Shown: one piece after another, positions 1,575-44,434 of the stretch | How the letters are laid out: the number at the start of each line of letters is the position of its first letter | Position numbering within the stretch: the first letter of the stretch is position 1 | Source of the DNA: Polytrichum commune | Lineage: Eukaryota; Streptophyta; Polytrichopsida; Polytrichales; Polytrichaceae | Assembly (NCBI GenBank): GCA_950295325.1 | Contig: OX485807.1 | Location: forward strand, 17,387,001-17,451,000 | Length of the DNA: 64,000 nucleotides | Direction of reading: 5' to 3' | Made by a program: the position numbers and the translations under genes | Notes under the pieces: model-generated | The model's database searches: none | The model's input: only the letters and a program-made list of their open reading frames with translations | What the model was told of the DNA's origin: nothing

Positions 1575-3263
1575 ATGGACTCCCAAGGGTCAATGCAAGA
1601 GGCGAGTCCGTCCAAACAGGGTGGCGCATCGAGCGCATTTCCTCCCGTACCAAATGTCGAATTGCCCACTCAACGGCAAGCCATGCCACCGCCACCATAC
1701 TTCCAAGGATTCCCACCCATGCCAAATCAAATGCCATTTCTTTTCCCGCATTCCTTCATGCCACATGTTCCAGGAATTGGATTCCCGCACCCTGCCCATG
1801 GCAACGCTAACGCACCCATCAATTTGTCGGATGTGCCCCATAAACGTGGACCACAGGTATGTGTGATTGATCAATCCAAGCCTGCCAAGAAACGCAAGAC
1901 TCCGAAGAAAAAACCCGAAATAGTGGAATTGGATGACGGCAATGAGGATGTGGAGCTCTCGAAGAATATCGGGCCTTGGAAGGAATTGGGTCATACAACT
2001 CATCAGCATAAGAGGGGAGATGCAGAACACGTTCAGTGCACCGCCCAAACAAGGTATCTTGTTTGCCCTTATATTTGGGATGTTTATATCGAATGTGTAA
2101 AGCCACTGTGTGTTGGCATTGCCATTGCAATGTCCCAGAACTGGCACATTTTTATAAGTCCAAAGTTTATCCCCTGCAAATTACGAAGTGTCCGAAACAG
2201 AGCCAAAATTTCAATTTGATTGATTTTTAGGGTATTCACAAAATCCGGCCAGCTTCTTCAATTCGGAAATACTGCATGTATTTCTTACTACTGCCACTGC
2301 ACCAGTATGCAGCCTGCAGAGTAGGCAGCACAGACCCCGCCCCACAGTCGAAGACATTTCTGTTTGTTTTTTTTTTTTGGCAAATTCGGTGTTATTTTTC
2401 CCTGCAATCAGTTTTTGGGCTGCTGTAACAAATGCCAGCACTGCTGCAGTGCTCTGCACACAGCACAGGGCAGCCAGCAGTTGAGAATTTACTGAAATTT
2501 CGACCCTGCTGTCAGTTCGCCTCCAGTCCCGAATTCACTGTATTTTTTACCTGCTGTCTGCTGCTATTCTCTGCAGACAGCACAGGCCACGTGGCAGTCG
2601 CGAATTAATTTTTTTTTCTTTTGTCCAATTATTTTTTGCTCGTAAGAACAGCAAGGTAGGAGTACATTTCTGAAATACGCAGCGAAAGTGTTGCACGTTT
2701 TTTTTTTTTTGGTGTTGTGTGCGAGTGCCCTCACATTTCACATTCCCGCATAACATGTGATTCCGATTGTGCTTGCAGGTGTGGACAACTGGTCCAGGGT
2801 GCACACGAAGCTTGTGTCACTTTGTCCGGACTTCACGAAAGATAGCGAAGCGTGTCGGAAGAAATGGAGTGCGATCTACAATGAATACAAAGAGGATAAA
2901 GCCATGAACCTCAAGTCAGGTTCCCAACGCTCCGAGAAGTGCAGGTGGTATCAGCTCGTAGACGAGTTCATGTACGACAGGGCCAACGTCGTTTCGCACG
3001 CACATGCCAGTGCGTTCAATCCGGATGGGGATGCAGTCACTGACACATCGCAAACAAATCCAGCGGAGCATCGAAGTGGTGAAAGCACTTCGAAGTCTCC
3101 TGAACCTAAACGGAAGGAGGAACTGTTTCTTGAACGGTGCATTGGCAAGATGGAGGAGAGTAGTGATAGAATTATGGAATCCATGAAAGCTTGCGAAGAA
3201 ATGAAGGTGTCTTTATTTATGAGCTTGCAGCAGACAATACAGAAGTTGGCAGATAAGCTCTAG
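1575..3263 (+). pseudogene. Harbinger Myb/SANT-like (trihelix) accessory protein, one frameshift
   Basis: In PIF/Harbinger elements this protein binds the element ends and helps bring the transposase to DNA and the nucleus. The start is ATG 1575. Exon 1 runs to 2053 and exon 2 from 2779 to the stop at 3261-3263, with a GT-AG intron between. Exon 1 has a Pro/Met-rich N-terminus, a basic nuclear-localisation-like stretch KPAKKRKTPKKKP (residues 102-114) and the beginning of the SANT/trihelix domain. Helix 1 (WVIQLISIRGEMQNTF) lies in a different frame from the upstream ..NIGPWKE, so there is one surplus base near 1984-1987. Exon 2 continues the domain (NWSRVHTKL, ACRKKWSAIYNEYK) and ends in a helical tail. 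The exons total 964 nt, exactly one more than a multiple of three; without that base the product would be 320 aa. A 5' UTR intron (1448-1563) is plausible. The family call is by motif only. Confidence 0.8.
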
Positions 3264-3275
3264 GTTGTATTCCTA

Positions 3276-4682
3276 TCAATCGCTGTTTGTCGGGAACGTT
3301 TGTGCCACGCAGGCCTTGGTCTTTGCCATCCAAAGGCTTCTAGCAATACCATTTCTCCTTGCACAAAGTTCTTTTGGCGTCTTGCCCCCCGTACTCATTG
3401 CAATTTCAAACTCCCTGGCACATTCTTGCTTAAGGTATTCTAATGTTTCTCTAGAGCTGTCATCTATGCCCGCCAATGTGTGCAAGGCGTTGTTTGCCAC
3501 AGCCATCCTCTCTTGTCCAGATGCACTTGATGCGGTTCCATTGGCCAATGCGTCATGTACTTCGTCTGTAGCCTCCTGTAACCACTCATTTTTCCAGAAA
3601 GAATCTCCGAATATAATGCATATGTTGTATAATAACAAGCACATGCTCACAAGATCCGGGACGTTCTTTAAGTGCACATCCACGCGTTTTAAAAGAATTT
3701 GCCACCTACCTTTAAGCATGCCGAAAGCCCGTTCAATGCACATTCGCGTGGAGCTCTGCACGTAATTCCAATGGTATTCCTCTCTCGACAAACCGTCTTT
3801 ATGGCCCTTGAACGGAGCTAGCATCCACGGACGACAGGGGTACGCGGCATCTCCAACCAAAACGTACGGTGATAGTCTTCCTGCCTCGCAAAATCTCCCT
3901 ATATGTGTCCTTGACCACAAATTCGCATCATGCATAGAGCTTGCCCAGCCTATATCAAAGTCCCAGAATAAACACCTGCTAGATACCACACCCTGCAAGA
4001 GTATAGAGTGAAAACCCTTGCGGTTATAGTAATCGGCCGCATGCAAGCGCGGGCCAATTATGGGTATATGTGAGCCATCGACGGCCCCCACAACGTATGG
4101 AATGCCGTGTAGATTCTGGAATTCTTGTGCAAATTTGTCCATAACAACCGCTGAAGGCCACCTGATAAATTTCCTCAACAACACTTGCTTCATGGCGCCA
4201 GTAAATTGGGAGACCGCATCTTGACTTGTGGAAAGACCTATTTTATACAAATCAGCGATACTTTGCATAGAATTACCTGTGGCCAATCTTGATATGGACA
4301 CTGCCACCTTAACCTGAACCGGGACGGCTAGCCGCAAGTGCGTATCTCGCCTAGTCAGGAAGGGTGCAAGAGTGCTACACAAATATTCGAATGTTGACAC
4401 GTCCATGCGCATTCGACCCTTGAACTCTCTCGCGTTGAAAGATCCCAACAAATTTTGATCGAAGAAACCTGGCCGGTGCAATCCCCTATCGTGGGCCCAC
4501 ACACTTCGTGGTCGCGACGCGCGAAGTTGTTGCCAACCCTGAATTGCCAAGAGAAGGCAACGTGCTCGATGCCGTTGCCATAGAAGCAAATGTCCGTGTT
4601 CTGTTGCTAGGGTTTCGAAGGCAAGCCACATTGACAACTGAAGAAATAACAAAATTACAAGCCTATGCACCTCTCCTTCCAT
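3276..4682 (-). CDS. PIF/Harbinger (HARBI1-type) DDE transposase
   Basis: An intact single-exon ORF of 468 aa, a normal length for plant PIF transposases. It catalyses cut-and-paste movement of the element, acting in the nucleus with the Myb-like partner. The catalytic triad is visible: D202 in VVGAVDGSHIPI, D278 in LVGDAAYPC and E317 in MCIERAFGMLKGRW, matching the DDE_Tnp_4 pattern. The N-terminal third (about residues 80-170) carries the usual helical region with FEYLCSTLAPFL and SRLATGNSMQSIADLYKIG. The start is ATG at 4682-4680, the first Met of the open frame, about 340 bp inside the right TIR. No stop or frameshift is present, unlike the adjacent Myb gene. The superfamily is secure; whether it is expressed is unknown. 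Confidence 0.92.
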   Translation of the reverse strand: MEGEVHRLVILLFLQLSMWLAFETLATEHGHLLLWQRHRARCLLLAIQGWQQLRASRPRSVWAHDRGLHRPGFFDQNLLGSFNAREFKGRMRMDVSTFEYLCSTLAPFLTRRDTHLRLAVPVQVKVAVSISRLATGNSMQSIADLYKIGLSTSQDAVSQFTGAMKQVLLRKFIRWPSAVVMDKFAQEFQNLHGIPYVVGAVDGSHIPIIGPRLHAADYYNRKGFHSILLQGVVSSRCLFWDFDIGWASSMHDANLWSRTHIGRFCEAGRLSPYVLVGDAAYPCRPWMLAPFKGHKDGLSREEYHWNYVQSSTRMCIERAFGMLKGRWQILLKRVDVHLKNVPDLVSMCLLLYNICIIFGDSFWKNEWLQEATDEVHDALANGTASSASGQERMAVANNALHTLAGIDDSSRETLEYLKQECAREFEIAMSTGGKTPKELCARRNGIARSLWMAKTKACVAQTFPTNSD

Positions 4683-5019
4683 GCTCGTAGTCTGTGGTGT
4701 GAAGTAAAAAAATTTAGCTAATGTTCTACCCGAAAAAGAAAAATGCGATGTGAGGGTCAGAGCTCTCTGTTTGCTGCAGACAGAGGCAGCTCTGTAACCA
4801 CAGCAGTCTACTCCGAAACAGAGGCCCCTGGAGTTTTGCGCTGGTCTTTCTGTGCCTGGGACCTGCTTGGATGAACGCTCCGGTTGAGAAAATTCATTCG
4901 TCGCAGGCAGGCACCTGCCGGGCTGCTTCGCCTCCCCTGCCTCTTTTGTGGTACCTGCAGTACCGGCAGTCCGACGTGGGTGCTGAGAGGCTACTGTACG
5001 GCCTAGCCTGTTCTGCCAG

Positions 5020-5047
5020 GCTGCCTGCCGGCAGTCTGGTAACGACC
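5020..5047 (-). repeat. Right terminal inverted repeat of Harbinger element
   Basis: Reverse complement of 1113-1140 with one mismatch, followed directly by TTA at 5048-5050. Confidence 0.93.
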
Positions 5048-5050
5048 TTA

Positions 5051-7212
5051 TTCATCTTGTTGATCACATGCCACTTGTCGAATGTTTGTGCGTGCATATG
5101 GCACATTGTCCAATAAGGCCAAGCGGTGTGGACCACACCAATAGACTCAAGTGAAAAGGATATGGACTTCAAATTCCATAGTGTTGTTTGCTACCCTATT
5201 CTATACTATCACACATCCATGGCAATATCGCATGCCAATTGGTTGCCACATGTGTGATACTACGGAGTGCATAATGTATATGCCATTAGGTCATATGCTG
5301 AAAAATGCCAAACCTAATCCTGAATGCAGATAGGAGCAATTAATAACCGCTTCCTTGTTTCTTTGGTGCTATTCTTGAGATGCCATGGTGGGTGGCATGT
5401 GGAGTTTGTTATGATAGGATTTATCATGTTGAATCCTAGGATAAATCACTATATGAACCCACTTTGATAAATCATTGACTTATTGGATGTTTGCCCTTTA
5501 CATTCACCTCAGATTTGCTAAATTTCAATAAGTTTCATGTCATTTGGTAGGTTTCATGTAAGTTTTGAAATTTTTGGATTGTCAAACCCCTACATATGTA
5601 GGAATGTTGGAAGTGTCCACATTAGGCACACTTACCTTATGTACACAATATTTACAAGTTCTCAACACTACCTAAATAGACTATTTCCTGCATCTATGTT
5701 TAGAAACATCAATTAGTAAATTATATTATTTAAACATAAATTATGTAACACTACCATCAAGTATGATAGTGATGATCGATATATTAAAAATGTATTAGCA
5801 TCCAAGATCGTCCCGTTGGATTGCCCTTGATTCACTGGATATATTATTTCAACATATTACGCGGAGGCGTTTCACTAAAATTATAATGTCCATCTGATCT
5901 TCTTGATGGACTCATCCGATTGTTTAATATGCCTTACGTGAGAGCCACGAATCCCTAGCCCTAAAAACGGACACCAATTGGCCAAACTTACTAGGCTCAC
6001 ATATATTGGTATTAGATTGGTGCCAAATATGTTAATAACATATATGTTAGATTGATCGGTAATTATGCACTGAAGTCGTCAACTTCATCCGGTTATTTCT
6101 TAAACCCAACCGGTTCATTTGTAACTAACTGCTGGTTCTCCCCGATCATTGCCTAGTAGTACATCAATCAGTGAGGGTGCGGAATTAGCAAATGTGATAC
6201 TAAATTCCTCTATTAGTGCCATCACAAGATCTAAGATCTAAGAGTTGAATGCATCGGGTTGCTCTGTATATCTCGGCACCATGTATTTCATGTATGTACA
6301 TGGTGTTTTTATTTATTTATTTGCAATAATTTAAAGCCATGATCTTTTGGACTTGAGTTTGGCACATGAGCTTCACTTATCAAATTCAAAAGTCCATTTC
6401 ATCCAAGTTGAGTGTGGTATATTAATAAATGTAAATGTGACTTGAGCAGAAGCCAAATCTAAGTGTGATATGATTTTCAAATAAATCCATGCATTTCATA
6501 TAGGTACGTGGCATTTTAATTTATATTATTTAAATAATTCAAATTCATTTAACCCCTAAACCCTAAACCCTAAACCCTAAAACAAACAATCAAATTATGT
6601 AACCGGCTGGAATTGGAAACACTAGGATCTTCACCAAAATTGATGGACTTAAACATAGTCAAATTTTACTTCAGTTCAAACCTATGATCACAGTCCATTC
6701 CTTCCTCTATGTCCCGTCCGATGCTATGTGATTTGGCATAGACATCGTGCTCAAAAAAGAAGTGACCTTCTTGTGGTTAGTTAACTTATTGACAAAGTTG
6801 TCACAACTATTGACTAGTCGGATCTACACTAAGGGTGGACAAGAATTGTCCGCATGGTTGTCTAAGCATCGACTCGAGTTGGTGGAGCACGAGTTGGTGG
6901 AGTATGACAAACGGGATAATTTTGGTACTCGGAAGGTTGTCTGTATGCCTCAAAATAGTTGGAGGTGCCTTCAAACTACCTTACCACTTGGATATTATTT
7001 ACATGTACGGAACATGTAACTTGTTACCATCAAATTTTCACAATGTCCATCTACATTTTGTCATATGATTTGAATGGAGATTTGATAAATGAAACGAACT
7101 CTAATTTCATTTTCACATATTGTTGTGGCTCAATACCACTTATGAGTCACATCCTATTATAATCTCCTACATAACATATCTTTGACGTTTTAAATTTGGA
7201 TTCTGGATAGTC
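5051..7212. other. Gene-free stretch between two DNA transposons
   Basis: AT-rich sequence without a recognisable gene. The ORF at 6747-7019 (90 aa) has overlapping open frames, no domain signature and no supporting splice sites. Another telomere-like run lies at 6557-6577. Confidence 0.55.
6557..6577. repeat. Interstitial telomere-like repeat (TAAACCC)3
   Basis: Three perfect copies of TAAACCC followed by a partial fourth; same unit as at 684-711. Confidence 0.85.
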
Positions 7213-9640: not shown

Positions 9641-10310
9641 GTACTCCCTAGACTAGCTATTAGTCGGTACATGTCATCATGGGAAGGGTAAGTTGATCCC
9701 AACCATCCATTATGACGGCTGAATCTCCACCGTCCAATCGGGCGGAGAGACGCCGGGTGGAGTCCCTTCGCATTGAGGACGACTCCTCATTTCTCTCTGC
9801 ACCTCCTCACTTCCTCTCTTCCTCTCATTTCCTCTTCTCATTTCCTCATTGACACATTTCCACGCTCCCGAAGAACCTAAACCCTATCTAGATTCTCCTT
9901 TGCATTGTGCTCAAGGATTGTTGCTACACCACTCCAGGTCGAATTCTTCCACTCCGCATTATTCCTCTTCCACTCCTGGTCGCATTCTCCCACTCCTGGT
10001 TGGTGCTCCATTCTTCCAAGATATCCCTGACTCGCATTCTTCCACTTCCACTCCTGAGATTTGCACGACGCTGCTTACAAGTTACAAGGTTTAGGTGTTG
10101 AGGTCCATAGCTGAGATCTGCCACAATCTCCAATATGCAATTCCAGCAACTTGGTAAGTAATCCTAAACTCCCTCAATGATACCTTCAATTCCAATCAGG
10201 GTAGTCTACAAGTTTATGCATATGTTGTATTCCTCTAAAGTAACTTGTCAATCATCTGCAATTGCAAATTCTTACCTTCATTTTGCGAGAATGTGTTGGT
10301 TTTGTATAAT
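9641..10310. other. Non-coding, pyrimidine-rich sequence
   Basis: Contains CT-rich sequence (about 9780-9850) and several imperfect copies of CATTCTTCCACTCC-like motifs (about 9940-10055) that create small overlapping ORFs. No domain or splice structure supports a gene. It could be a 5' flank of the genes downstream. Confidence 0.4.
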
Positions 10311-10516
10311 TTGCATGAATGCAATTGAATCTGAAGTTTTCTTTGTGCTTTCAAGTTTTCCTCTACTTTGAGTAATGCAAATTCCCCTGAATTCAGAAGT
10401 TTGCATGAATGCAATTGAATCTGAAGTTTTCTTTGTGCTTTCAAGTTTTCCTCTACTTTGAGTAATGCAAATTCCCCAGAATTCAGAAGTTTGCATGAAT
10501 GCAATTGAATCTGAAT
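10311..10516. repeat. 90-bp tandem repeat, 2.3 copies
   Basis: Copies start at 10311, 10401 and 10491 with TTGCATGAATGCAATTGAAT. The first two full units are nearly identical and the third is cut after about 26 bp. The exact 90-bp period keeps an ORF open on the minus strand, but that ORF is simply the repeat translated. Confidence 0.9.
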
Positions 10517-10784
10517 GCATGTTTGTAGTCTTATTTGTAACTATTATCCTTATTGCATTGCATTGCTTTCTGTTGCATCATTTTGTTATTCTTATTGCAA
10601 TGCATTGCATTCTTACCACATTGCTTAACATGCTTATGCTTATGCTTATGATTATTGCTTCTTTCTTAATCCAAGTGCTTGCTGATTACTGCAATGGTTG
10701 TGCTCAATGCAATGCTGCAATATATTGTATTGTACTAAAATATTGACAAATATTCTATTGTACGGATAGTCCGTATTGTACGGA

Positions 10785-11536
10785 CTATCCCCACCCACAT
10801 CCAAGCCCTTTCCAAAGGGCTCAACCCTCACTGGGAGAACTTCCACTCGGTCGAGTGGAAGTTCTCCCATTCCCACACCCAGGCCTCCAAAGGGGGTTCT
10901 CAGCCCTCACTGGGAGAACTTCCACTCGGTCGAGTGGAAGTTCTCCCACTCACACACCCAAGCCCTTTCCCACCCACATCCAAACCCTTTCCAAAGGGCT
11001 CAGCCCTCACTGGGAGAACTTCCACTCGGTCGAGTGGAAGTTCTCCCACTCCCACACCCAAGCCCTTTCCCACCCATATCCAAGCCCTTTCAAAAGGGCT
11101 CAGCCCTCACTGGGAGAACTTCCACTCGGTCGAGTGGAAGTTCTCCCACTCCCACACCCAAGCCCTTTCCCACCCACATCCAAGCCCTTTCAAAAGGGCT
11201 CAGCCCTCACTGGGAGAACTTCCACTCGGTCGAGTGGAAGTTCTCCCACTCCCACACCCAGGCCTCCAAAGGGGGCTCTCAGCCCTCACTGGGAGAACTT
11301 CCACTCGGTCGAGTGGAAGTTCTCCCACTCCCACACCCAAGCCCTTTCCCACCCACATCCAAGCCCTTTCAAAAGGGCTCAGCCCTCACTGGGAGAACTT
11401 CCACTCGGTCGAGTGGAATTTCTCCCACTCCCACACCCAAGCCCTTTCGCACCCACATCCAAGCCCTTTCCAAAGGGCTCAGCCCTCACTGGGAGAATTT
11501 CCACTCGGTCGAGTGGAAGTTCTCCCACTCCCACAC
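10785..11536. repeat. Palindrome array, left block (8 palindromes)
   Basis: Eight near-identical units each carry a 38-bp palindrome with arms TGGGAGAACTTCCACTCG and its reverse complement around a GT centre. The GGG triplets start at 10833, 10912, 11012, 11112, 11212, 11291, 11391 and 11491. Units come in two lengths, 79 bp (with CCTCCAAAGGGGG) and 100 bp (with an extra CCCACCCACATCCAAGCCC segment). The array continues after the solo LTR at 14057. Long open frames across it are a by-product of the repeat. No transposon family with this unit is known to me. Confidence 0.93.
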
Positions 11537-14056
11537 TGTGAGCCCAAAATGGTGCCCACATGTGGTGATTAACTCTTCGAAACCAATTTTAGTTTGACTT
11601 TGATATGTTATGATTATTCACAAAACATAAAAAGAGTGACGTGTGGTTTGGATTTAAGTTTAGGCTTTAGAATGTGTTGTGTCGCGCACCTCTGCATGAG
11701 GAGTGCCCGAAACACCATGGGCACAAGGGGGACCCCGGAGTAACACCCGGGACTTGTGGCGCCGTTGGTGAGAGGGCCCAAGTGATCCTAGTGTGGGTGA
11801 GGGCCCCGGGCGTTGGGAACGCCTCCCACCCACGGAGACTAGGATGCACAAGGGTAAGACCACAAGCTATGCGTAGCTCATGGCGTGGTGATTCTAGAAT
11901 GCTCAAGAACACCTCAATTGGAGGTGTGAGCTAGGAGTTATGGCCATTTGAGTGGGGCGCTGTCCCGGGACAGCGCCCTGGTACAGCAGTGCCTGGGAGT
12001 GATTCCCGGGACTGCCAAGGTTCAAACAGGCATTACTTCCTCAATACTTTCCCGAATGGGGCAAGTGAGGTGTCCATCGGCATCTACGTGAAGCGTAGAT
12101 GAAGATGGAGTGGTTGGTTGTTATGATCAGACATCATACAAGGAAGTTATGATGGTCTGAAGCTGCTGGGGGGGTTCTAGGCCCAGCAGCTAAAGGAAAA
12201 TGTCCACTTGGCCCCAACTCTTGGTAGAGAGACAAGAGGTTGGTTGGCGGTGGGGTAGGGGCCCCGTGTAGAGTCCTAGAGGCTTATATGGATGAGGTGG
12301 TGTGGCCTCACCCACCCGAGGCCGAACGGCACGGCCTCCATGGGCTTTGGCCCATTGTGAGGCCATAGTTGCCTAGTATGGTTCGGGTTGTTGTAGTGTT
12401 GCTCCGGCAACACGATGATCAACATAGGATTGGACTTCCATGGATGGAAATCCACATCAAAGAAATGGGTTACCGATTAAGGGGTGAGTCCCGAAAGCAA
12501 AGTAGGAGGGTTGGTTCCCCTTCTATGAACTATATGGTCCGGGGTAAGAGGAGATAACCATTAGCATGGCGGTATGCGAAGGGTTAGCGCTCGTAACCTT
12601 TGCTAGAAAGGAAAATTGGCAAGATTGTCAAGGGGGGCTAGCAAGGGTTGCGACATGTTGTGTGATTATTTCAAGGTTGAATTCAATAAGAGTATGCCTT
12701 GATAATGTGAGTAGGGGGTAAGGTGAAGCAAGGTGAGCTCCGCGGGTTAAATGCCCACTTTTGGATCCACCTTGTTAGTTTAGGAAGAAGGAAGCTTGGT
12801 GGAAGGGGATTAGTCCCTACTTTAGAGGTGAAGGTTAAGGGATTGTGATTGGAGGTGCTAATCCTCTCACCCTATCCTTACCTTTCTCTCCCTCTCTCCC
12901 TCTCTCCCTCTTTACTACTTAAGGTGGTTTCTCTCTTATTTTTCTCTCTCTCCATCAAGCGCTCTCAAGGGAGCAAGTTCTTAAGAGCTTGAGCCACGTG
13001 TGTAGGTTATTAGTTTTAGTGAAGTTAATTAGTTAAGCTCTCTCTCTCAAGTCCTCTCAAGGGAGGTGAGCTCTTAGAGCTTGGGGCCACGTGTGTGGAT
13101 TAGTTAATAATGTTAGGTAATTAGGTAGCTTATTAGCCGAAGAATAAAAGAGTTAGCAATTGTCCGATTAAGCATCTTGAGGGGATTACATTTAAGTGTG
13201 TAGCTAAAAGGCTCGCATGTGGGCCTTTGAGCAATTAGGTGATTAGGTGGTTATGGTGAATTTTAGTTTGGCTTGATTGAGCCTGAGTTGAGCCTAAGGA
13301 GGTCTAGCTGCTGGACTGTGGTGATTTCGGTCGAGGCTAAGCCCTGGAGCTGCCGACTGGGGTGGTTTCGGTTGAGGCTAAGCCCTGGAGCTGCCGACTG
13401 GGGTGGTTTCGGTTGAGGCTAAGCCTTGGAGCTGCCGACTGGGGTGGTTTCGGTTGAGGCTAAACCCTGGAGCTGCCCGAAAGGGGATTGATGTGAGAAG
13501 GCATTAAAGGTCAGTTATTTGGGGAGCCTAACCACATCGGATTAACATGAGAAGCTAGTCAAGGCTGGTCCTAAATAACCATACATTAGTATTTCTAGAA
13601 ACCATTACATTAGGTGTTTAGACTTTGTAGTGCAAGCCAAGTAGTTAAAGCATTAGTTTATCTAGAATCACGTGTGGCCTCAAAGGCAATTGTAATTGTG
13701 ATTAACCATTGAGGGAGTGTTTTTTCAACACTTACGTCCTTTTTGGTAAAACTCAATCACTTATAAAAAATGGATAAAGTGGAAGACTCTAGCAAGGGCA
13801 ATATGAAGGAAAAGATAATCAAAGGCCAAGGGGGAATATCCTTGAGAGCTTGTGTTGCCAAGGCCGCCGGTTGGACCCTAGAAAAGGCCAACGCGACCAC
13901 GAGCCAAGAGGCTACTTCTAATAAACAAAGTGATTCACAATGACATGAATGCTTAAGGATGTGAAGAGATCAATTTTCACGCTACATACACTACATGTGA
14001 TTCTCAAGACCATCACCCGGACTAGGACGCTTAAGGGTGGTGGGTTTGGCCTCACA
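11537..14056 (+). mobile_element. Solo LTR (2520 bp) inserted in palindrome array
   Basis: The sequence starts TGTGAGCCC and ends GGCCTCACA, so it has TG...CA ends within a 6-bp inverted repeat. It is flanked by a 5-bp direct duplication CACAC (11532-11536 and 14057-14061). Removing the LTR and one CACAC restores a perfect 79-bp array unit, which proves insertion. There is no internal retroelement sequence or second LTR, so this is a solo LTR left by LTR-LTR recombination. Its start (TGAGCCCAA.ATGGTGC.CACATG) and end (CCCGGAYTAGGACGC) match those of the LTR at 57752-60141, so it belongs to the same broad Gypsy-type group. It contains CT-rich tracts near 12890-12960 and a 41-bp tandem repeat at 13303-13480. 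No ORF of note. Confidence 0.9.
13303..13480. repeat. 41-bp tandem repeat inside the solo LTR
   Basis: About four copies of a unit containing GAGCTGCCGACTGGGGTGG, with copies near 13349, 13390 and 13431 (exact 41-bp spacing) and degenerate flanking copies. Confidence 0.85.
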
Positions 14057-14660
14057 CACACCCAAGCCTCCAAAGGGGGCTCTCAGCCCTCACTGGGAGA
14101 ACTTCCACTCGGTCGAGTGGAAGTTCTCCCACTCACACACCCAAGCCCTTTCCCACCCACATCCAAGCCCTTTCCAAAGGGCTTAGCCCTCACTGGGAGA
14201 ACTTCCACTCGGTCGAGTGGAAGTTCTCCCACTCCCACACCCAAGCCTCCAAAGGGGGCTCTCAGCCCTCACTGGGAGAACTTCCACTCGGTCAAGTGGA
14301 AGTTCTCCCACTCCCACACCCAAGCCTCCAAAGGGGACTCTCAGCCCTCACTGGGAGAACTTCCACTCGGTCGAGTGGAAGTTCTCCCACTCACACACCC
14401 AAGCCCTTTCCCACCCACATCCAAGCCCTTTCCAAAGGGCTCAGCCCTCACTGGGAGAACTTCCACTCGGTCGAGTGGAAGTTCTCCCTCTCCCACTCCC
14501 ACACCCAGGCCTCCAAAGGGGGCTCTCAGCCCTCACTGGGAGAACTTTCACTCGACCGAGTGGAAGTTCTCCTACTTCATTCCCAAGCCCTCTCCAAAGG
14601 GGGCTCTTAGCCTTCACTGGGAGAATTTCCACTCGACCGAGTGGAAGTTCTCCCAGTGAA
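14057..14660. repeat. Palindrome array, right block (7 palindromes)
   Basis: Continuation of the array at 10785-11536 after the solo LTR. Palindromes start at 14095, 14195, 14274, 14353, 14453, 14538 and 14619, again spaced 79 or 100 bp except for the last two (85 and 81). The last two units have diverged: the centre is CGACCG instead of CGGTCG, and the spacer is CTACTTCATTCCCAAGCCC. Confidence 0.93.
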
Positions 14661-14704
14661 GGCTAAGATCCCCCTTTGGAGAGGGCTTGGGAATGAAGTA
14701 GGAG
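14569..14704. repeat. Long near-perfect inverted repeat at array end
   Basis: The last array unit is followed by its own reverse complement. Arms of about 66 bp run from CTCCTACTTCATTCCC to the mirror GGGAATGAAGTAGGAG, centred near 14637 on the usual palindrome. Such a structure can fold into a hairpin with only a few mismatches. Confidence 0.88.
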
Positions 14705-14765
14705 AGCCATTTGGAAATTGTGGGAGAGCTCAGCCCTTAGAGAGACCTTGTGAGGCGAGTGGTGG

Positions 14766-14795
14766 AAGAACTTCCACTCGATCGAGTGGAAGTTC
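14766..14795. repeat. Isolated 30-bp palindrome of the array family
   Basis: A perfect 30-bp palindrome, AGAACTTCCACTCGA and its reverse complement, lies about 120 bp upstream of ATG 14912, separate from the array. The centre is CGATCG, different from the GT-centred array copies. Confidence 0.9.
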
Positions 14796-14911
14796 TCCAT
14801 ACTAACTTCTCTCCATTGCAGTTAGTATCTGTCTGTCTATCCACCTCACTGACTCCTTTCAACATTCTCATTGGCCTCATGATTGCCTGGTCATTGTCCC
14901 TTGTAGGTGAC

Positions 14912-17900
14912 ATGGACAAGGACGTGTTATGGACAGACCTTGTTGGGGAAATGCAAGTAGGGCCGAAGGGTGTCTACTGGGATTTGAGGGACACCCACTT
15001 GAGACGTTGGTCACTCCAAGTTAATCGAAAAAAAAGTGATTCCCCACTCAAATTATCATTTGTGTACCGGGTAGAGAAGAGCTGGATCCCAAACCCGGGT
15101 AACCCAATAACTGTAGCTGCGATTGGCGATCGAGACAAGCTAAATGTGTCGGTCCTCGAAGGACTCGAAGAACGCCTTCAGTCAATCGATTGCAAGAGAC
15201 ACATGTTTCACCGGGAGCCGTTTCTACAATCAATCTCAACACTTCCTCCTGCGGACAAAGAAGAAATGGAGAGAGTGATGACGTCTGGGGTGTCGAAGAA
15301 GGCAATCAATTTCATACTCGAGGCACTAAGTGATATCAATGAAAGGGAAGCGACTGAAAAGGAGGCTTCAAGGAAGCAAAAGAAAAAACAAGCGGAGAGT
15401 CTTAAGCCGATGACTGAAGATGGAGGGGCTAAGAAGAAGACACACAAGAAACATAAACCTGCTGAAGAGGATGTTGGAGGAGCAAGTGAGGCGGCCAAGA
15501 ACTCTATGGCTATTAACCCAACGCCTATTCAACGTCACAATCCACAAGAGACCGCAGGCGCAAGGAAACCCGTGGCCGCCAAGAGGACTTTATCTTCAGA
15601 GAGGAAGACAAAGCAAAAAAAATTGAAGGCTGATGATGCAACAGATGATACTCCCTTGGTTCTCACTGCAACAGAGAAGGGCAGAGTTATCTCGCATGGA
15701 GAGGAACCAAGTCTGGAGGAAGCTGCAGCGGACCGCAAAAAGTTCGTGCAATTGTTTGGGCATCTTTATCCTTTCGGTGTCGAGAAAGTATTCCAAGTCA
15801 ACATCAAAAAAATGAAGAGCGCCAAATCGTATCAGGTTACTCGTCCCTTAGATGACGCTGGAGTAGCGCTCATGAAAAATTATCTTGTTCAGACTCCACC
15901 AGCTTGGCCTCATCATAATTTTTGTCTCATGCCGAAGCTGAATAAGGGTGAAACTTGAAAAGAAGGGATGACTTGGGACGACATCAAAGATGGCCAATTC
16001 ATCATTATCAACGGTCAAGACAGTGTGGCTGCATCGAGGCAAATTATAGGGCACAAAGATACCGAACAATCATTGAAAGACAAATTGAAGATATGGCCAT
16101 GTACAATTGTCTGGACCGAGGATCAAAGCATGACAGTTCGTCTGTCTTATACCCTGAATAACTCGAATTCTTTCAATAAATTCACTCCTACATGGACAAC
16201 ACAAATCATGTATTGTCGTAGAGTGTGGGTGAAACTAGGGAGGCCTCAAAAACAATGTGCTAACGTTGTGTCAACAACGATGGATCCTAAAATGGTGGAA
16301 GCTTGGAAAGTAAGTTCTCCAAACTTGGCATTGTATTGACTTGATTTATTTTAGAGCTCTCAAATCTAGTACTCTTATGCACCGTTGGGGGAGAGAACTT
16401 CCACTCGACTGAGTGGAAGTCCACCCTGCCTCACTACGCTCACTTACACTACCTGATTTATGTTTGAAATCACATTGAAATCAATTTCAATATTAACACT
16501 CCTCCACATTGCAGAATTTTACGACAAGCATGGAAGCATCATTTACTACCATTGCTAGAGGTATCACACACGCAGATCTCAATGCTAAGCTCAACCTTAT
16601 CATGACCGAAGATCAAACCTCAAAATTGTGGAAGAAGATCTTCATCGCCCACGAGAAAGGGACCCTTATGAATCCCGACAAACCGGGGTCCACTTACTTG
16701 GAGGAATACCTCGAGGCTCAACAGAAACAACGAGCCCGCCACGAGAAGAAGAAATCGGCTGGACCATTCGAGGAGAAGCCCTATGTATGCAAACCCTTGA
16801 CTCGGGAAACGTTCAGGAACATGGCCGGCCTAACTAGGGCCGACTATCTCCTGTGTGGGCATTGAATACTCGATGTGAGGCTTGGCGAGGAGGTTCCTAG
16901 AGTAACTTTCAGAACTACAAATAATCCCAAAGTCTCGATTTTAAAGTCCTGGTGTAACTTTAGGAAGTGGAAGAACATTCTGCTGCAAGAGTTATCAGCA
17001 CGCGATCCGAAACATCTTGGCATCTGGGGCAAAGATTCGGAAGGTTTTGAGAGCCTTAACCGTTCCGTCTGGTAAAAAAAAAAGGGACCATGGTATCACA
17101 AGGGCCAAGTGGGCGAAGCTCTTCCAGGTTGCAGGTGATACTTGACTGAACAAGAAGCGGGCGCCCAACAACAAGTTCCTGGAGGCATCCCCTGCATGTG
17201 ATCGTTTGTTGCAAGAGTGGCTTCAGACAGACCTAGAAGAGAGTCATTCCCAGGTGATAACACGCTTTGTGGACTACAATTCTGTGAAGAAACAGTTGGT
17301 GATCCCTATCCACGATAGGGTTGACCGTGAATGGCTCTCGAAGTTCACGGTATCTGCGGGGTTTATCGACTTTAGATTTATCCCAGGGTGTGTCGATCAG
17401 CCAGTGTCGTCTTCGGTTGTGGAGTCCTTGGTGAAGCATATTGCCGATCCACTATGGTCACCGGGTCTGAAGACAATTCCCGCCTGGATGATTGTTTCTG
17501 ACTTACGCAACCACCTGGCAGCTGTGGAGTTCATCTCAACACTCCTTCGCAAGCATCTAGACACGTTTCTGAACGTCCCGTTGGTTTATCTGCCTTGTCC
17601 AACCGAAGATCTTCCTTATAACAAGGAAGTAGACAGCAAGAGGACTTCCCCCCTTCTGTACGTGGACTTCCTTACATGTTCGTCCATATTTCCACGCCAC
17701 AAAGTATTCCCTTGCCCGATGTTGGCGCCTTCGTCTCGGCGTTATGCCGTGAACCCGAAGCAGTGGTCTGAACTGTCTTACGAAGTGAACTGAGGTGAAT
17801 TGCAAATGGAAACCTACCTATCGTTTCTCAGCCACCTTGGAAGCTCGGGTGGAGTCGTGATAAATGTCTTCGGCGGGTTGAAGCCTGTTGTTGCGGCATT

Positions 17901-20900
17901 TATGAGCGACTTCAACGTGTTTTCATACATGGACTCCAGCTTCATTCACACGTTGTCTGAGAAGATAGAACACATTCGACCACTTTGGGCAGTGGACTTT
18001 GAAGAAGACGAAGTTGAAGACGAGGGAGATCAGCATTTTCATCCTCATGAACATGCACCCACACCACTGTTGTTGGTAAGTCCCCCCTTCGTTTTGTTTT
18101 GTCTTCTTTTGTTTTCTTTCCTCGCTTTTGACTTACACGCGCCTGAAAGTTCATTGCCATATTCATCCTTATATTGTCTGTTTCATAACAGGAGGATATC
18201 CCACAACATCGTTCACCCGTTGCGGACCTCGAGAACATGGACATTGATAGACACGACTCGGATTATGAGGAGCCTGAAGCCGATGACGACGATCGTGAGG
18301 CACCTAGCGAGCAAGATACTGACGAGGCCGCCAGTAGAGGGGAAAGCGACCATATGGACGCGCAGTCGGAAGAATGCGAGTCCATTCATACACAATCGTC
18401 ACCACGTGATTTTGGCACTTCCCCTATGCACGCCAGGGTCCTGGACTTTGCCGCTTCAAGTCAAGCCACCGGTCGGGATCATGTGACCTTGCTAGCCGAT
18501 GATCCAGCCGAGGAACCGTATCATGAGGTTTATCCGGAGGGTGCTCACGATGCTGAGGACAATCCCGGGGACGAGGACGACCACGAAGCCGGGGAGGAGG
18601 AAAGTGAGGAGGTCATTGAGGATGTTGAAGAGGCCGGTGAGGAAGAACAGGAGGATGACCAAGAGGTCGACCACGAGACCGTTGTCGAGGTATACACAGA
18701 CAAAGCCGATGCAGACAAGGACGCACCCGAGCTTCCAACGACCTCCCGACCAGCGTCGCCATCACATGTTCATGACAGTGATATTCCACCGCCCAGTCCC
18801 CCCAAACCCAAGGCGTCCAAACGAGGCAAGCACAAAGACCGGCAGTCGAGGCGTCACAGTTCCCGAGCTCAAGAACCTGCAATTACAGAGAGTTTATTAG
18901 AAGACAAAATTGTGGGGATCTTGAGCAAAACTTTGCCCAGCATGCTCTCGGGCTTGCTCCAAGAAGCAATGGGACTATCCCGAATTCCAACCCCCCAGCA
19001 AGCGCCGCAATCAGCACCTATAGTGGAGGTTGCCGTCGGATCCGGCGAACCCAAAATGGGGACCGATCAAGTGGTTGCAACGCAAGAGGTTGGCGTCCAA
19101 GGAATGGAGGTGGATCACGTGGATGGAGCTACGCACATGGATGCGTCACCGACTACCATGGACACCGACTACGCCGAGGCCAATGTAAGAATTCGATCCC
19201 CGTGAATATTTCAGCACTTTCTTTTGGCCTTTGTCAAGTGACTGAATCTCCACCTGGATGTTTGATCCAGGTCGGAGACGGCGCGGCATCTTGAAGCCTC
19301 TTGTCGACAATACATACAGTTAGGGGTGTAGGATAGTGTAGAATTCCTCCCTTGTGGGAAGGTCCCAGATGTGGGCCAATTTATTATAAATAAAGTGTAA
19401 TTATTTTCCTTCCACATGTACTATCTATTATGCATTCAAGTGTCTTTAATGATGTCTTGCAATTCTCAGGCGTCCTTGGACAACCCAGAACAAGTGGATC
19501 CACCACACTCTGCAACATTGTCTCCTCGAACGTCACCTACTATCAACGACGATCCCATGCCACTCTCGCCCATTATGGGTCCCTTAAACGTAACGGTGCA
19601 GAAGCGTGCTCCACCTACGGACTCAGACCAAGATGTGCCACCGATCATCGCTAATCCTGAGAATCCATTATCGCCAATCCCATCACCGCGGACGAACATC
19701 TTGCCAACTGGTGGGGAGGTATCGGTCCTCCCAGTGGCAGATTCTACTGAGGCTCTACATAAGCCCTCGGAGGTGGAGTCTGTCCAGCCAACATCGGTTG
19801 TCGTCGAGCACGCATCAAATCTCGGTGTAGAGGTTGCTAAAACAGAGCTTCATCCGGAGGTGCAGGCATCGTCAAGTGCCGTCAATATCATCCCATTGGA
19901 CTGCCACAATCCAGAAGCCACTATAAATGCCCCACAAGCAGTGAAGAGGTATTTGACACGTTGGCCACGTGGCGAAAAGGCGGCCCATCTTGTATTTGAC
20001 AACACCGAACTCCATGATTTCCGGACGATGCACAACAATCAAGATGAGGACAAACGGCGTGCCGCTCTTGCCAAAGTGGTGCCTAGTCATGTCAATGTAA
20101 GTTTACTCCATCCCTGGCTCAAGGTTATTAGTTTTGATTTATATATTTCTATTTCCACGTTTTCACTTCTCTTTCATTTATCCTCACGTAGTTTTGGGTT
20201 CAGGGTCCACAACACTCGATAACGCCCATGGATGCGCCTATACCAAAACACATTGTCTATGATAAGCTCTTTGTTTACGATGACACCTACCCAAATGTGA
20301 ATAGGCCTATCCGAGTATTCACAAGGGAGATGGGAATTGCGTGTGCTAAAAGACTAATGTCTAAGTATCCTGAAGATCCTTCCTTAGGGTACTCTGCTCG
20401 ATGGGAATTCAATCCGATACACTACGAGGTATTGGTCCGGGCCCATAAATCCATGCACGTTCGAGTTCGCCTATACATCTTCCCATACCACACGTGCATT
20501 TCCAATCAGCACAATCAAGTAATGAATGGTCTGTTCTATCATGCCTAGATTTGCAAGGTCATTCTTTTTTAAGTTCATTTTAGCAAATTTCAGAAGCTCA
20601 CAGTGGATTCATGTCGGCAGGCGCCTGCTGCATTGCCCGCCAAGAGGTTCATTGTGGTGTTCGATTTAAACGGCATATTTTGCCACTGTACCCCTCGTCA
20701 CAGCAATATGGGGTCTGTCCCCACTTGGGTAATGCACGATCGTGCACCGGACAAACTTCCTGGCTTGGTAGGGCCCAAGGTTGTCCTCCCTAGACTGGGA
20801 TACAAGGTGTTTTGGTACCGGATATCCACAATGTTCCATCTTTGCATATGGTCATCAATGAAAAAATCAACTGTCGATCTTGTGGTGGAGTATCTATTTG

Positions 20901-21397
20901 CCGGGCTGCCAAAACCTGCATTAGTACTTGGCCAAGAGGATTGCACCACATTCAAGGACATGTGGGGCAATGTCGTGACGAACCCTTTGAAGCCAACAGC
21001 TCCATTGTTTTTGAAGAGTCTGGTCAGGAAGTTTTGGTGGCCACCTATATCTTTCGATTCTGGGAGGATTACAACTACAGAGTCGAACACCATTCTAGTA
21101 GATGATTGCCCTTACAAATCTATTTGCAATCCGGACGAGTGTGGTATATTTCCCAATTCGTTCACAAATAATCGGGTCCAAGATGCAGACATGATGAAGG
21201 TTCTCCTCCCTTACTTTGAATCATTGTACTACTCACCAATGTCTGACGCATGCGATTTTGTGATCAGACGTAGATTTGGGCAACAGCCTATACCGCATAA
21301 CGATGCAGTGAAGATGGCAGTTATGCAATCCAACAAGTTCAATGGACCGGAGTTGCAACCTGTAGAGCTCAAGCCAATGGAAATAGTACATAAATAA
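14912..21397 (+). pseudogene. Chimeric multi-exon gene ending in FCP1/NIF-type HAD phosphatase domain
   Basis: Six exons are joined by phase-0 GT-AG introns: 14912-16309, 16515-18075, 18192-19184, 19470-20096, 20204-20428 and 20594-21397. They give about 1868 codons. The N-terminal part is basic and helical. A segment with IKDGQFIIINGQDSVAAS resembles the ParB/DGQHR-type fold, with H replaced by D (tentative). Exon 3 is strongly acidic and exon 4 is Pro/Ser-rich. Exons 5-6 carry an FCP1-like domain: motif I VVFDLNGIF (Asp-x-Asn, as in some plant members), WSS in LCIWSSMKKSTVD, and motif III ILVDDCPYK. Such domains dephosphorylate Ser/Thr, classically on the RNA polymerase II tail; the substrate here is unknown. 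The frame is interrupted by TGA at 15956, 16863, 17143 and 17791, and by a one-base frameshift near 17025-17030. The exon total is one base over a multiple of three, fitting that single indel. The last four exons are intact and could still be expressed separately. One gene versus two adjacent genes is not settled. Confidence 0.6.
16397..16420. repeat. Degenerate array palindrome in intron 1 of the chimeric gene
   Basis: Arms ACTTCCACTC and GAGTGGAAGT surround a GACT loop inside the intron 16310-16514. It is clearly related to the array unit but has lost its outer arms. Confidence 0.8.
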
Positions 21398-21948
21398 GTA
21401 GGTTCAATGGACCTTGAGTTGCAACCAGTAGGACTCGCTCCACTAGTAGGAAATAAATAAGTAGGATTGTATGGCATGTAACATTGTATTTTATGGCATC
21501 TCTAGTTTCCTCCTGCTGGGTACACACCTTCCAGTTCCACGCCCTCAGCTTTTGTGTGCCCGACATCGGGGCAGTCACGCAGTCTAATTGCGGCTTCACA
21601 CATTTCACAATCGAGCAAGACATTGGACGTGCCACCAGTGAAGATGTGTCACTCTGAAGGCCACTTGCACCACTCCCAATGGACTCATGGATCCACTATG
21701 GTAAATTTGTGTTATTTCACACTTTGACAATGTTATTGTGTACATGCTATTGTAATATCAAACACACATTTCATTTCCAATTGAGGCTCATTTGTATAAA
21801 TATAATTGAATGTGTATGGAATTGTGGTTCAGTTGCACCATTTTGTGTGGGGCATAAAATCGGGCTCAGTTGCATGTATGAATATATATTGGCTCCAAAA
21901 TGTAAATTAGTAAATCGGAGCCCTGCTTGTCCCTTTGTCACCGTGCAG

Positions 21949-22428
21949 GGTGTTGACCTGAATATGGAACCCGCAGTGGAAGAATCTGCACCCCCTTGTG
22001 ATACGTTGCCCATCGTGCGCTCCACCTCTACACGCGAGTACCAAATTTTGCTTATTGAATCAAGGGGCCCTAATTCAAGGGGTGTTCAGATGTTGCGTGC
22101 TGGATTGGCGAGCATTGGCAAAACATATGACCCACAACCCGTCACGGCCACAGTACCAACGATTCTTTTGAACGCGCAGGTTGCTGACCTCAATATGACC
22201 CCCCCGCGACCCCTTGCTACCCGCGAGCATCAAATTGCTCTTATCGAGTCAAGAGGCCCTAATTCAAGAGGTGTCCATCTATTGCAGGTTGGATTGGCTG
22301 ACCTTGCCAAGATCACACCCCCTCAACCCGGTCCGCCAATGGTCAGCCTACCCTTGGAAGCCCTAAAGGGGAGCCTTCCCTGTGATGGACAAATCTTCCG
22401 TTTGTACCCTAAATATGCTAGAAGTTGA
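21949..22428 (+). CDS. Uncharacterised protein with duplicated REyQI..IESRGPNSRGV motif
   Basis: A probable terminal exon: a splice acceptor (CCGTGCAG) precedes 21949 and the frame runs 159 codons to TGA at 22426. Any upstream exon has not been identified, so the product is probably longer. The peptide contains two copies of a roughly 75-aa unit beginning VDLNM / VADLNM. The best conserved part is REYQILLIESRGPNSRG in copy 1 and REHQIALIESRGPNSRG in copy 2 (21 of 30 residues identical across the extended block). No known domain is recognised. It lies 550 bp downstream of the phosphatase exon on the same strand and may belong to that gene's cassette. Confidence 0.45.
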   Translation, partial: GVDLNMEPAVEESAPPCDTLPIVRSTSTREYQILLIESRGPNSRGVQMLRAGLASIGKTYDPQPVTATVPTILLNAQVADLNMTPPRPLATREHQIALIESRGPNSRGVHLLQVGLADLAKITPPQPGPPMVSLPLEALKGSLPCDGQIFRLYPKYARS

Positions 22429-22781
22429 ACCATCCCGTACCAAATGTGTGCGGGAATACATATTGTACACAATTGTTAGTGCAATACATAATATATACAA
22501 GGTCACTAAACACTTGCACTAACCACTGCATTGTCTTGTCCCAAGTCGGTACACATGTCAACCATGCTCCCAATGTATGGTTCCTTATTGTCTTGCAACA
22601 ATACTTCACACGGAAGCTCCCAATGTATGGAACCTATTTGTCTTGCCCAAACACTTCGATGACTGGTCACAATGCATAGACCCTGTATGTCTTGCCTTAA
22701 CACGACCACGTGGGCTGCACATGTGTGGACCATGTTAATCTGCCCTTGTTGCTGAATTAATCACGTGTTGGTACAATTCAG

Positions 22782-23651
22782 GATGTCGTGGATGGGTGTC
22801 CCGCCCCCGCCCCCTCTCCAGCTCCCCGGCCAACTGGATTTGGGGAGTGGATCCGGAGAATGCAAACAGCTGATCCGGATCGCCCGTTAGACCCTACAAT
22901 GGAAATGAGAAGTATGGACGACGAGTTTATCAACTTAGCCAATGACATTGATGTGTGCACAGAACGGTTCATGCAACTACAAACAAATATGACCACTGCT
23001 CTAGATAGATGTCAAGGATGCCGCTTGGTTGGAATGGATGCACACATGCTTCAGAGATTGGTGCATGCAACTATCGATATGGGGCTCACCATCCCACAAG
23101 TGGAGTTCCTCCAACAACGTGTACCAGATTTATACTTGATAGAGCACTCCATGTGGGAAGCCACTCAAGAAATCCTACCTCATTTAGATGACCTACTCCA
23201 TCATGATTCCGAAGAAATGGTGAACCATGTATATGACAATGAAGAGGAGAACCTCCCAATCACAACACTGTTGGAAGCATGTCAGTTGGCCCAACCACAT
23301 GATGAGGAAAGAGGCCTGATGGAGCCCCCAATGGGAGAGCGTACAATTCAGGAGGAGTTTAACTACATAGCAGAGGAGATTGATGAAGTTACGGGTAAGT
23401 TTATGAGACTACAAACGACCATGACCACTGCTCTAGAGAGATATACGGAGTGTCTGTTGCTCAGCGATCGCATATACAACCTTGAGATGGTGGTGCTTGC
23501 GGCACAACATATTGGGTTTGACTCTCAACAACTGGCATATATTGAGAGCAAAATCCCAGACTTGGTGTACATGGAGAAAGTTACGTGGGAACAATCTTTA
23601 GAAATCAAACCTCATTTGGAAAACATATTTGAGTCCATGGCCAATCAATAA
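22782..23651 (+). CDS. Uncharacterised protein with tandem duplicated helical domain
   Basis: An open frame of 289 codons to TAA at 23649, preceded by an acceptor-like ATTCAG at 22776-22781. The first in-frame ATG is at about 22860. The protein has a Pro-rich start and then two copies of a roughly 100-aa helical domain. Copy 1 has DEFINLANDIDVCTERFMQL ... MTTALDRC ... VPDLYLIEHSMWE; copy 2 has EEFNYIAEEIDEVTGKFMRL ... MTTALERY ... IPDLVYMEKVTWE. The copies are diverged but alignable along their whole length, so the duplication is old and the frame has been kept, which argues for a real protein. No function can be assigned. Confidence 0.5.
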   Translation, partial: DVVDGCPAPAPSPAPRPTGFGEWIRRMQTADPDRPLDPTMEMRSMDDEFINLANDIDVCTERFMQLQTNMTTALDRCQGCRLVGMDAHMLQRLVHATIDMGLTIPQVEFLQQRVPDLYLIEHSMWEATQEILPHLDDLLHHDSEEMVNHVYDNEEENLPITTLLEACQLAQPHDEERGLMEPPMGERTIQEEFNYIAEEIDEVTGKFMRLQTTMTTALERYTECLLLSDRIYNLEMVVLAAQHIGFDSQQLAYIESKIPDLVYMEKVTWEQSLEIKPHLENIFESMANQ

Positions 23652-28495: not shown

Positions 28496-29946
28496 GGGCC
28501 GGTTTACACTATGGACCATGAAGTTGGACCAGGGCTCCGCAAGGCAGCTGATTGGCTATTGAAGTTGTCCCGGGATAACTTCGGTTCACACTAAGGGAAA
28601 AATGGTAGAGGGACCATGGAGGTCGAGGTCCCCAGAATATCATTTTCAAGGCCTAATAAATGCACTGACATGGTCCAACGGGTTTTGCAGTGAGAGAGGC
28701 AAGAGAGGTGGTCTGGTAGGAAAGGGCAAGGGCCCGATGTCAGATAAATGCCATTTCAAGAAAATTTTAATGAATCAACCTTTTATGTGCCTTAATTATA
28801 TCATAGCCCATGAGATATACCAACACTACCTTGCCCTACTACTTAAACCGGCTCACGCGTGTTTCACCAAACAACACAAGACATCTAGAACTCAAGAATT
28901 CAAGTGCAGATTTGTTTTTTGGATATACCAACTACAATGTTTGGAATTTGGGGGCTTGTAATATACCGTTGGAAAGGTCTTGAAAATACCTTCCCAACGG
29001 TATATTACACACCCCAAAATGCTTAAAAAATACAGTTGAAAAGGACAAAAAGAAAAAATTGTAATGGTTTAGTGATTGTAGATCAGGGTGGTCAAAAGAA
29101 GCGCAATGGGAAATCTTCTAACACTAATTATCAAAGAATTGAAAATTAGTGTTGAGCAAGGTAGGGTGGTAAAAACATTAAATATAATCAAACACTAAAT
29201 AGGATATTTAGTGTAGTGACAACACAAGGTACATGTCACATGTACAAATTCAATTGCTCATTTTTTTTGTAAAAAATGTTGTGAGAAGATTTGCAAGCCA
29301 CATCTTTGACACATTTAACAAGAAATGAAGACAAGTGAAGCCCAAGAGAAGACAAGAGATGATCAAACTTGAATTTTTTTCAAAATTACCCTTTTTGGGC
29401 ATGTATTAAAAAATCAACACCTTCTCTTTTTGGTGCATGGTCATTCTTCTTGGTCCACATTTGGTTTCACCTTATGAGGGGCCCAAGGCTCTCAGAACTA
29501 TTTTTTTATGAAGTCGGACCATGGAAGTCAGACCATGAACTCGGACCATTGACAAAGGCCATCTTCCATGGTCCATAGTAGGCCCGGGCACATGGGCGGA
29601 GGGCCGCCTCCGCCCCAGCCTGGCGGAAGCCAGGTGGCCCTCCGTGGTTGGCCGGCGGGGGGGCCGGGGAGGTGGCTGACCAACCAGGCGGGTTGCCTGC
29701 GCACTGGCCCTCAGCCCTCCGCCCTCCGCCTCTCCTATCTGTCAACATTTTTTATTACATATAAATTTTTCCTTCTTGATTTGGTGTGGCTAATGGGGGA
29801 GGACCCGTCCCTTCCGGGCTGGGGCGGACGGTCCGCTCCGGCCCCACAGCCGGCGGAGGTCATCCAAGCCAGATGATTATCATCCTCCTCCGCCTGGCCA
29901 AGCGGCGGAGGAAGCTCATGTGCGCAGCACTAGTGTAAACCAGCCC
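28496..29946. mobile_element. Larger TIR element related to the GGGCC-type MITEs
   Basis: The left end is GGGCCGGTTTACACTA and the right end is TAGTGTAAACCAGCCC, an inverted repeat with one mismatch. TCA occurs directly on both sides (28493-28495 and 29947-29949). It is 1451 bp long, has a GC-rich right part (about 29580-29900) and contains the small foldback at 28946-29020. No transposase ORF is recognised; the overlapping ORFs in the GC-rich part have no domain. Confidence 0.6.
28946..29020. repeat. 75-bp foldback hairpin
   Basis: Arms of about 33 nt (ATTTGGGGGCTTGTAATATA... and its imperfect reverse complement) surround a 9-nt loop, with a few mismatches. It could be a tiny nested MITE or a small-RNA hairpin. 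Confidence 0.75.
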
Positions 29947-44218: not shown

Positions 44219-44434
44219 AACCTTCAAAATGAAGTGCACTCAATATGAGTTATATGGATAAGTGGCCTTCAAGAATGCAAAGGATTAGGCCAGGGTCAGG
44301 GGATTAGACCAAGGTCGGGCCATGCCAGGCTCGGGTTATTTCGGTGCTGCCCTTGCCCGACGAGTGCAACGCTCCTTGTGGGGGGTATTTAAGTGCCCAA
44401 TTAAGTGCTCAATTAAGTTAAGTAACCGAATTAG

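Follow-up and report, generated by a model that had tools for sequence, protein, structure and literature searches.

A tandem array of fifteen palindromes, a likely minisatellite, inside a putative leader intron at a gene-like locus of Polytrichum commune

The array and its genomic setting

The window, meaning the whole 64,000-nucleotide stretch of Polytrichum commune DNA that was analysed, contains fifteen near-identical 38-bp palindromes (P1 to P15) that form one array at 10832-14655. A donor-like GTAAGT is located at 10154, acceptor-like sites precede 14822 (with a TACTAAC) and 14907, and an ATG lies at 14912. A putative first (leader) intron on the forward strand, delimited from consensus sites alone, would span 10154-14906 and enclose all fifteen palindromes. 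This arrangement suggests that the array is located in the leader intron of a gene-like locus reaching to about 23.6 kb, and the array probably occupies noncoding sequence in the 5' part of that plant locus. A simple splice-site filter also returned six more donor-like and twelve more acceptor-like sites, three of the acceptor-like sites being inside array spacers. Two lone, diverged palindromes, P16 and P17, lie 3' of the array. In the inferred gene structure P1 to P16 precede the ATG at 14912, and P17 is inside the next intron-like gap, 16310-16514 (GTAAGT at 16310, TGCAG ending at 16514); the ends of this gap were read by eye and were not among the sites listed by the filter. A recent 90-bp tandem duplication (99%) is found at 10310-10515, just upstream of the array and within the putative leader intron.

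The structure of the gene-like locus at 14912-23651 was inferred entirely from consensus sites. A NIF-like phosphatase domain (5.5e-9) was the sole family above its cut-off in the pieces of the locus that were scanned. The motif of this domain is DLNG, the usual form being DxDG. The locus carries an in-frame TGA at 15956, and its frames are broken near 16.9-17.1 kb. It also contains internal protein duplications, and these differ most at third codon positions, with 60 differences vs 48 and 40 at the other two positions in one comparison (117 codons) and 18 vs 10 and 9 in a second (41 codons). For this reason coding constraint has probably acted on the locus.

Several other features were identified in the window. 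At 2754-5051 a reverse-strand ORF with a DDE_Tnp_4 domain accompanies a forward-strand ORF whose Myb/SANT match fell below its cut-off; we take this pair to be PIF/Harbinger-like. A cryptochrome-DASH gene at 46721-51922 consists of a photolyase N-terminal exon and a weak C-terminal exon with a FAD domain that fell below its cut-off. The exon at 46.7 kb matched solved plant-type CRY-DASH chains best, at 85 bits vs 46 for the next protein, and these chains are presumably those of Arabidopsis. A self-complementary stretch of about 200 bp at 28883-29083, with a 36-nt hairpin, is possibly MITE-like, and short TAAACCC runs are also found in the window. The cryptochrome-DASH exon and these runs suggest that the window is nuclear DNA of a plant.

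Palindromes, spacers and the split unit

The left part of the array (10832-11527, forward strand) contains P1 to P8, which start at 10832, 10911, 11011, 11111, 11211, 11290, 11390 and 11490. P9 to P15 form the right part (14094-14655, forward strand), with starts at 14094, 14194, 14273, 14352, 14452, 14537 and 14618, and P14 and P15 are more diverged than the others. Perfect 18-bp arms surround a 2-nt centre in nine of the 15 palindromes, P13 has perfect 17-bp arms, and the remaining five have at least one mismatch. The initial annotation had described fifteen near-identical palindromes repeating at 79 or 100 bp, and 11 of the 14 raw intervals have these lengths; the others are 2604, 85 and 81 bp. 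Its view that each unit can fold into a strong hairpin was borne out by the single-stranded DNA fold of the 38-mer (-18.9 kcal/mol, z -8.25). The 15-bp arm word, with up to three mismatches, occurred 36 times in the window (30 times in P1 to P15, four times in P16 and P17, and twice elsewhere), compared to a mean of 1.6 and a maximum of 5 in shuffled sequence, and none of 100 shuffles matched or exceeded the observed count. Every one of the 13 perfect palindromes found in the window (arm of at least 12, loop of at most 4) lies within 10764-14796: ten are array units, one is P16, one is at the 5' edge of the array and one is inside the insertion described below. No such palindrome was present in any of five first-order-resampled windows. 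A chance origin of the fifteen-palindrome array is excluded.

The palindrome at the 5' edge (10764-10790) has 12-bp arms and a 3-nt loop and is unrelated to those of the array. Array homology begins about where it ends, the reference copy of the repeat family starting at 10790. Exact searches gave no match for a 28-bp palindrome pattern in the viral_contigs collection or for a 34-bp pattern in genome_contigs, a prokaryote collection, as would be expected of plant-like DNA. Two 15-letter arm words had no match in open-access papers, in which a 13-letter arm word alone was matched, once in each of seven papers, and a narrow search of open-access titles and abstract openings found no published description of this repeat.

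The 14 spacers comprise seven of 62 bp (L), five of 41 bp (S) and a last two of 47 and 43 bp. Their order, S LLL S LL S L SS L followed by 47 and 43, is irregular and not the alternation of two unit lengths proposed initially. Nor is the difference between the two types a clean, removable 21-bp segment, as had been supposed; L contains an imperfect 22-bp tandem duplication, and L and S differ further outside it. Units are closely alike, with 0-4 differences per 100 bp between L units and 1-5 per 79 bp between S units, and no difference separates units 4 and 6. Longer blocks, of 279 and 379 bp, are also repeated within the array; units 3-5 and units 6-8 form the same L-L-S triplet, with six differences between them in 279 bp. 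Support was mixed for a derivation of the arms from the CT-rich leader at 9800-10153, the score of the alignment being reached by 0 of 300 shuffles for the S unit, 15 of 300 for L and 5 of 300 for the palindrome alone. The array is mostly open in all three forward frames (10770-11597 and 14035-14610). These open frames are explained by composition, since nearly half of the shuffles of a unit were also free of stop triplets (906 of 2000 and 954 of 2000, for one L unit and one S unit), and a coding array was rejected.

The 2604-bp interval between P8 and P9 contains a 2520-bp insertion (11537-14056, forward strand) inside one of the five S spacers, with ends TGTGAG...CTCACA and a copy of CACAC on both sides (11532-11536 and 14057-14061). 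Removal of the insertion and one CACAC copy reduces the interval to 79 bp and leaves an ordinary S spacer. Neither a long terminal direct repeat nor an ORF of at least 120 aa wholly inside the 2520 bp was found. Partial relatives of the insertion occur within the window at 43244-43476, 44153-44219 and 57754-57859. Its 3' end matches 44153-44219 at 87%, and in a 4.7-kb search its start matched 57754 at 64% over 109 columns (E 3.5e-5) and its end matched a stretch ending at 60141 at 79% over 47 columns (E 0.013). With TG...CA ends, a short target duplication, a single LTR and related LTRs elsewhere in the window, the insertion would most simply be read as a solo LTR; a short non-autonomous element is a less likely reading. 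The array consists of 15 tandem units of two main subtypes, and an insertion that bears the hallmarks of a solo LTR later interrupted one unit.

Members of this long-LTR family are located at 11537-14056, 44153-44219 and 57754-60141. A gag ORF at 62261 (Pfam PF03732, 2.5e-11) lies downstream of the copy at about 57754-60141, and the Ty3 capsid model fell below its cut-off on this ORF. A candidate primer-binding site follows that LTR copy. A perfect 24-bp palindrome, GGGCGCTGTCCCGGGACAGCGCCC, at 11955-11978 inside the putative solo LTR is unrelated to the array palindrome.

Variation within the array and in the diverged copies

Changes were counted in P1 to P13 and in the twelve spacers of 41 or 62 bp; the count excluded the more diverged P14 and P15 together with the spacers of 47 and 43 bp. 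Singleton changes were about as frequent in arms (4/468) as in spacers (7/639; Fisher p = 0.77). When shared differences were included, the arms tended to vary less than the spacers (4/468 vs 15/639; p = 0.064), which is the direction expected from the initial claim of conserved arms and variable spacers and falls short of significance. Special arm conservation within the array is therefore not supported. Covariation of the arms, also raised at the outset, did not exceed shuffles in the 17 copies of the window (10 distinct): one arm pair was changed on both sides, a count reached by 145 of 500 shuffles. Selection for an RNA helix is not supported, compensatory arm changes being no commoner than in shuffles. 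The array is too young to reveal constraint, and the change counts reveal none.

Divergence is highest at the 3' edge (P14, P15 and P16). The palindrome centre reads GGTC in P1 to P13, its reverse complement GACC in P14 and P15, and the symmetric GATC in P16. A near-perfect 138-bp fold-back with 68-nt arms (97% complementary) is centred on P15 at 14568-14705. To the right of P15 stands an inverted copy of the spacer, and this copy extends to the last bases of the P14 arm. As single-stranded DNA the fold-back gave -80.8 kcal/mol (z -22.8). P16 (14767-14796), at the 3' edge, is a lone perfect 30-bp palindrome just 5' of a TACTAAC...CAG acceptor-like site, and P17 (16392-16425) is a lone diverged palindrome in the intron-like gap.

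Cores and flanks of these copies were compared with two array units in ungapped, centre-anchored alignments, and the figures for the nearer unit are given. P14 matched at 25/26 core and 37/52 flank positions (p = 0.015), and P15 at 25/26 and 30/52 (p = 0.0004), its right flank being the inverted spacer. The contrast was greater for P16 (26/26 vs 9/52, p = 2e-13; 7/52 with the other unit) and P17 (24/26 vs 18/52, p = 7.5e-7), and the p values of these two are biased because both copies were found by a core search, which would miss copies with decayed cores. In gapped alignments the left flank of P16 matched a unit with a score reached by 1 of 200 shuffles. No match to a unit was obtained for the right flank of P16 (166 of 200) or for the two flanks of P17 (196 and 63 of 200). 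The core therefore has boundaries of its own on the right side of P16 and in P17, and these may reflect constraint, transfer or insertion.

Origin of the array and comparison with known systems

The head-to-tail units are 10-100 bp long and highly alike, and the order of their subtypes is variable. We consider the array to be a palindrome-bearing minisatellite that arose by unequal exchange or slippage together with template switching at hairpins, with no function of the array needed, and give this reading a probability of about 0.6. It is favored by the two main unit types in irregular order, by the block repeats, by the alignment of P16's left flank to a unit, by the similar singleton rates of arms and spacers, by the lack of covariation beyond shuffles, and by the position of the 5' array edge at the end of another perfect palindrome. 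Replication slippage and unequal exchange would have multiplied an older palindrome and its spacer towards the left, at times copying whole blocks such as the L-L-S triplet; growth from the 3' edge is proposed because P14, P15 and P16 are the most diverged. The hairpin would have favored template switching, which would have produced both the inverted spacer on the right-hand side of P15 and the flip of the centre between P1-P13 and P14-P15. Template switching at inverted repeats is described in the available text of PMC8604942 as making arms identical and inverting the centre without selection. The symmetry can therefore be explained without selection, and would be a by-product of the repeat's origin and mutation; the initial annotation, in supposing that ordinary satellite DNA would have no reason to preserve a palindrome, did not take this process into account.

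Several observations weigh against this reading. The cores of P16 and P17 are matched far better than their flanks, a contrast biased by the core-based finding of both copies, and the arms tend to vary less than the spacers. Template switching keeps symmetry and not identity with a distant copy; core transfer, insertion or constraint would therefore also be needed. Only two events of the template-switch type were seen, and two separate point changes from GATC could instead account for the two centre states. The array is a real feature of an ordinary kind, with one loose end, namely the two lone core copies in intron-like positions. As a minisatellite it offers a compact case of a tandem repeat with near-perfect palindromes and no evident selection inside the array, and with signs of hairpin-driven rearrangement in the inverted spacer, the flipped centre and the palindrome at the array edge.

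The foremost alternative, which we nevertheless regard as unlikely, is an array of binding sites. The palindrome core would be a dyad for a DNA-binding protein, which the neighbouring multi-exon locus may encode if that locus is a large DNA transposon, and by analogy with VANC targets tandem repetition in noncoding sequence would raise the density of the motif. The core-flank contrast of P16 and P17 fits this proposal, with the bias already noted, as does the placement of P1 to P16 in the putative leader intron and of P17 in the next intron-like gap. The VANDAL21 targets, according to the available text of PMC5735166, are likewise tandem repeats, in the introns of VANC21 and VANB21 and upstream of VANA21; the string "palindrom" does not occur in that text. 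In the 10 scanned ORF pieces, which cover part of the locus, no transposase or DNA-binding family exceeded its cut-off (HNF-1_N, at E 2.4, stayed below), and none was found in the five of these pieces that were compared to NCBIfam, a prokaryote library. The predicted fold of the first ORF was uninformative (mean pLDDT 40), and the in-frame TGA and broken frames of the neighbouring locus also argue against a source of such a protein there.

Next in probability, and also doubtful, is an origin from a fold-back or hairpin MITE. The P15 fold-back would be the founder, a nearly loop-less hairpin element of which the array is an amplified half, and P16 and P17 would be other remnants of such elements. 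The long, 97% complementary arms at P15 and the existence of two lone copies are consistent with this origin, although the near-perfect arms fit a recent inverted duplication equally well. No target-site duplication was seen by eye around P15, P16 or P17, among the window copies alone, and beyond the left flank of P16 the two lone copies have only the core in common with the array.

A further proposal, improbable and placed after both of these, is that the 26-28-bp core is a self-contained module, either a dyad to which a protein from the neighbouring gene-bearing element binds or a very small mobile hairpin, which was placed in separate intron-like positions and amplified in the leader intron. 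If true, the module would be a palindromic counterpart, in another plant lineage, of the VANC-target system, and a dispersed, bound core would represent a novel type of control site for plant transposons. A source of hairpin small RNAs, in which array transcripts would fold and be processed to 21-24-nt RNAs, is very improbable: the predicted folds are strong and a correct leader-intron model would imply transcription of the array, but the window gave no Rfam match at gathering score and a Dicer precursor would normally have longer stems than the 17 bp of the common unit. Neither this role nor one as transposon ends, both suggested initially, gained support from the window.

The array resembles the VANC-target repeats (PMC5735166 and PMC10398659, in the text available) in that tandem repeats carrying a motif lie in noncoding sequence of a plant locus with several exons. 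VANC21 recognises a short, non-palindromic 9-mer, YAGTATTAY (PMC5735166), whereas the motif here is a palindrome, and the present locus yielded neither VANC nor transposase in the 10 ORF pieces scanned, nor any element ends. A second parallel is the phBglII400 satellite of the clam R. philippinarum, whose junctions map in its palindromes, a property found for only one of the satellites examined in the available text of PMC5139131. Both consist of tandem monomers with a palindrome, and the edge of the present array abuts a palindrome. The palindromes of phBglII400 are 10 and 12 bp long, compared to 38 bp here, and the present array differs further, to the extent described in that source, in having only 15 units, two unit types and lone core copies nearby. 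The closing comparison is with mutation by template switching at quasipalindromes (PMC8604942, as far as its available text goes), with which the array shares the identity of the arms and the inversion of the centre between near-perfect arms. That work concerns single inverted repeats in yeast genes, whereas the present case is a tandem array in which a whole spacer is inverted at P15.
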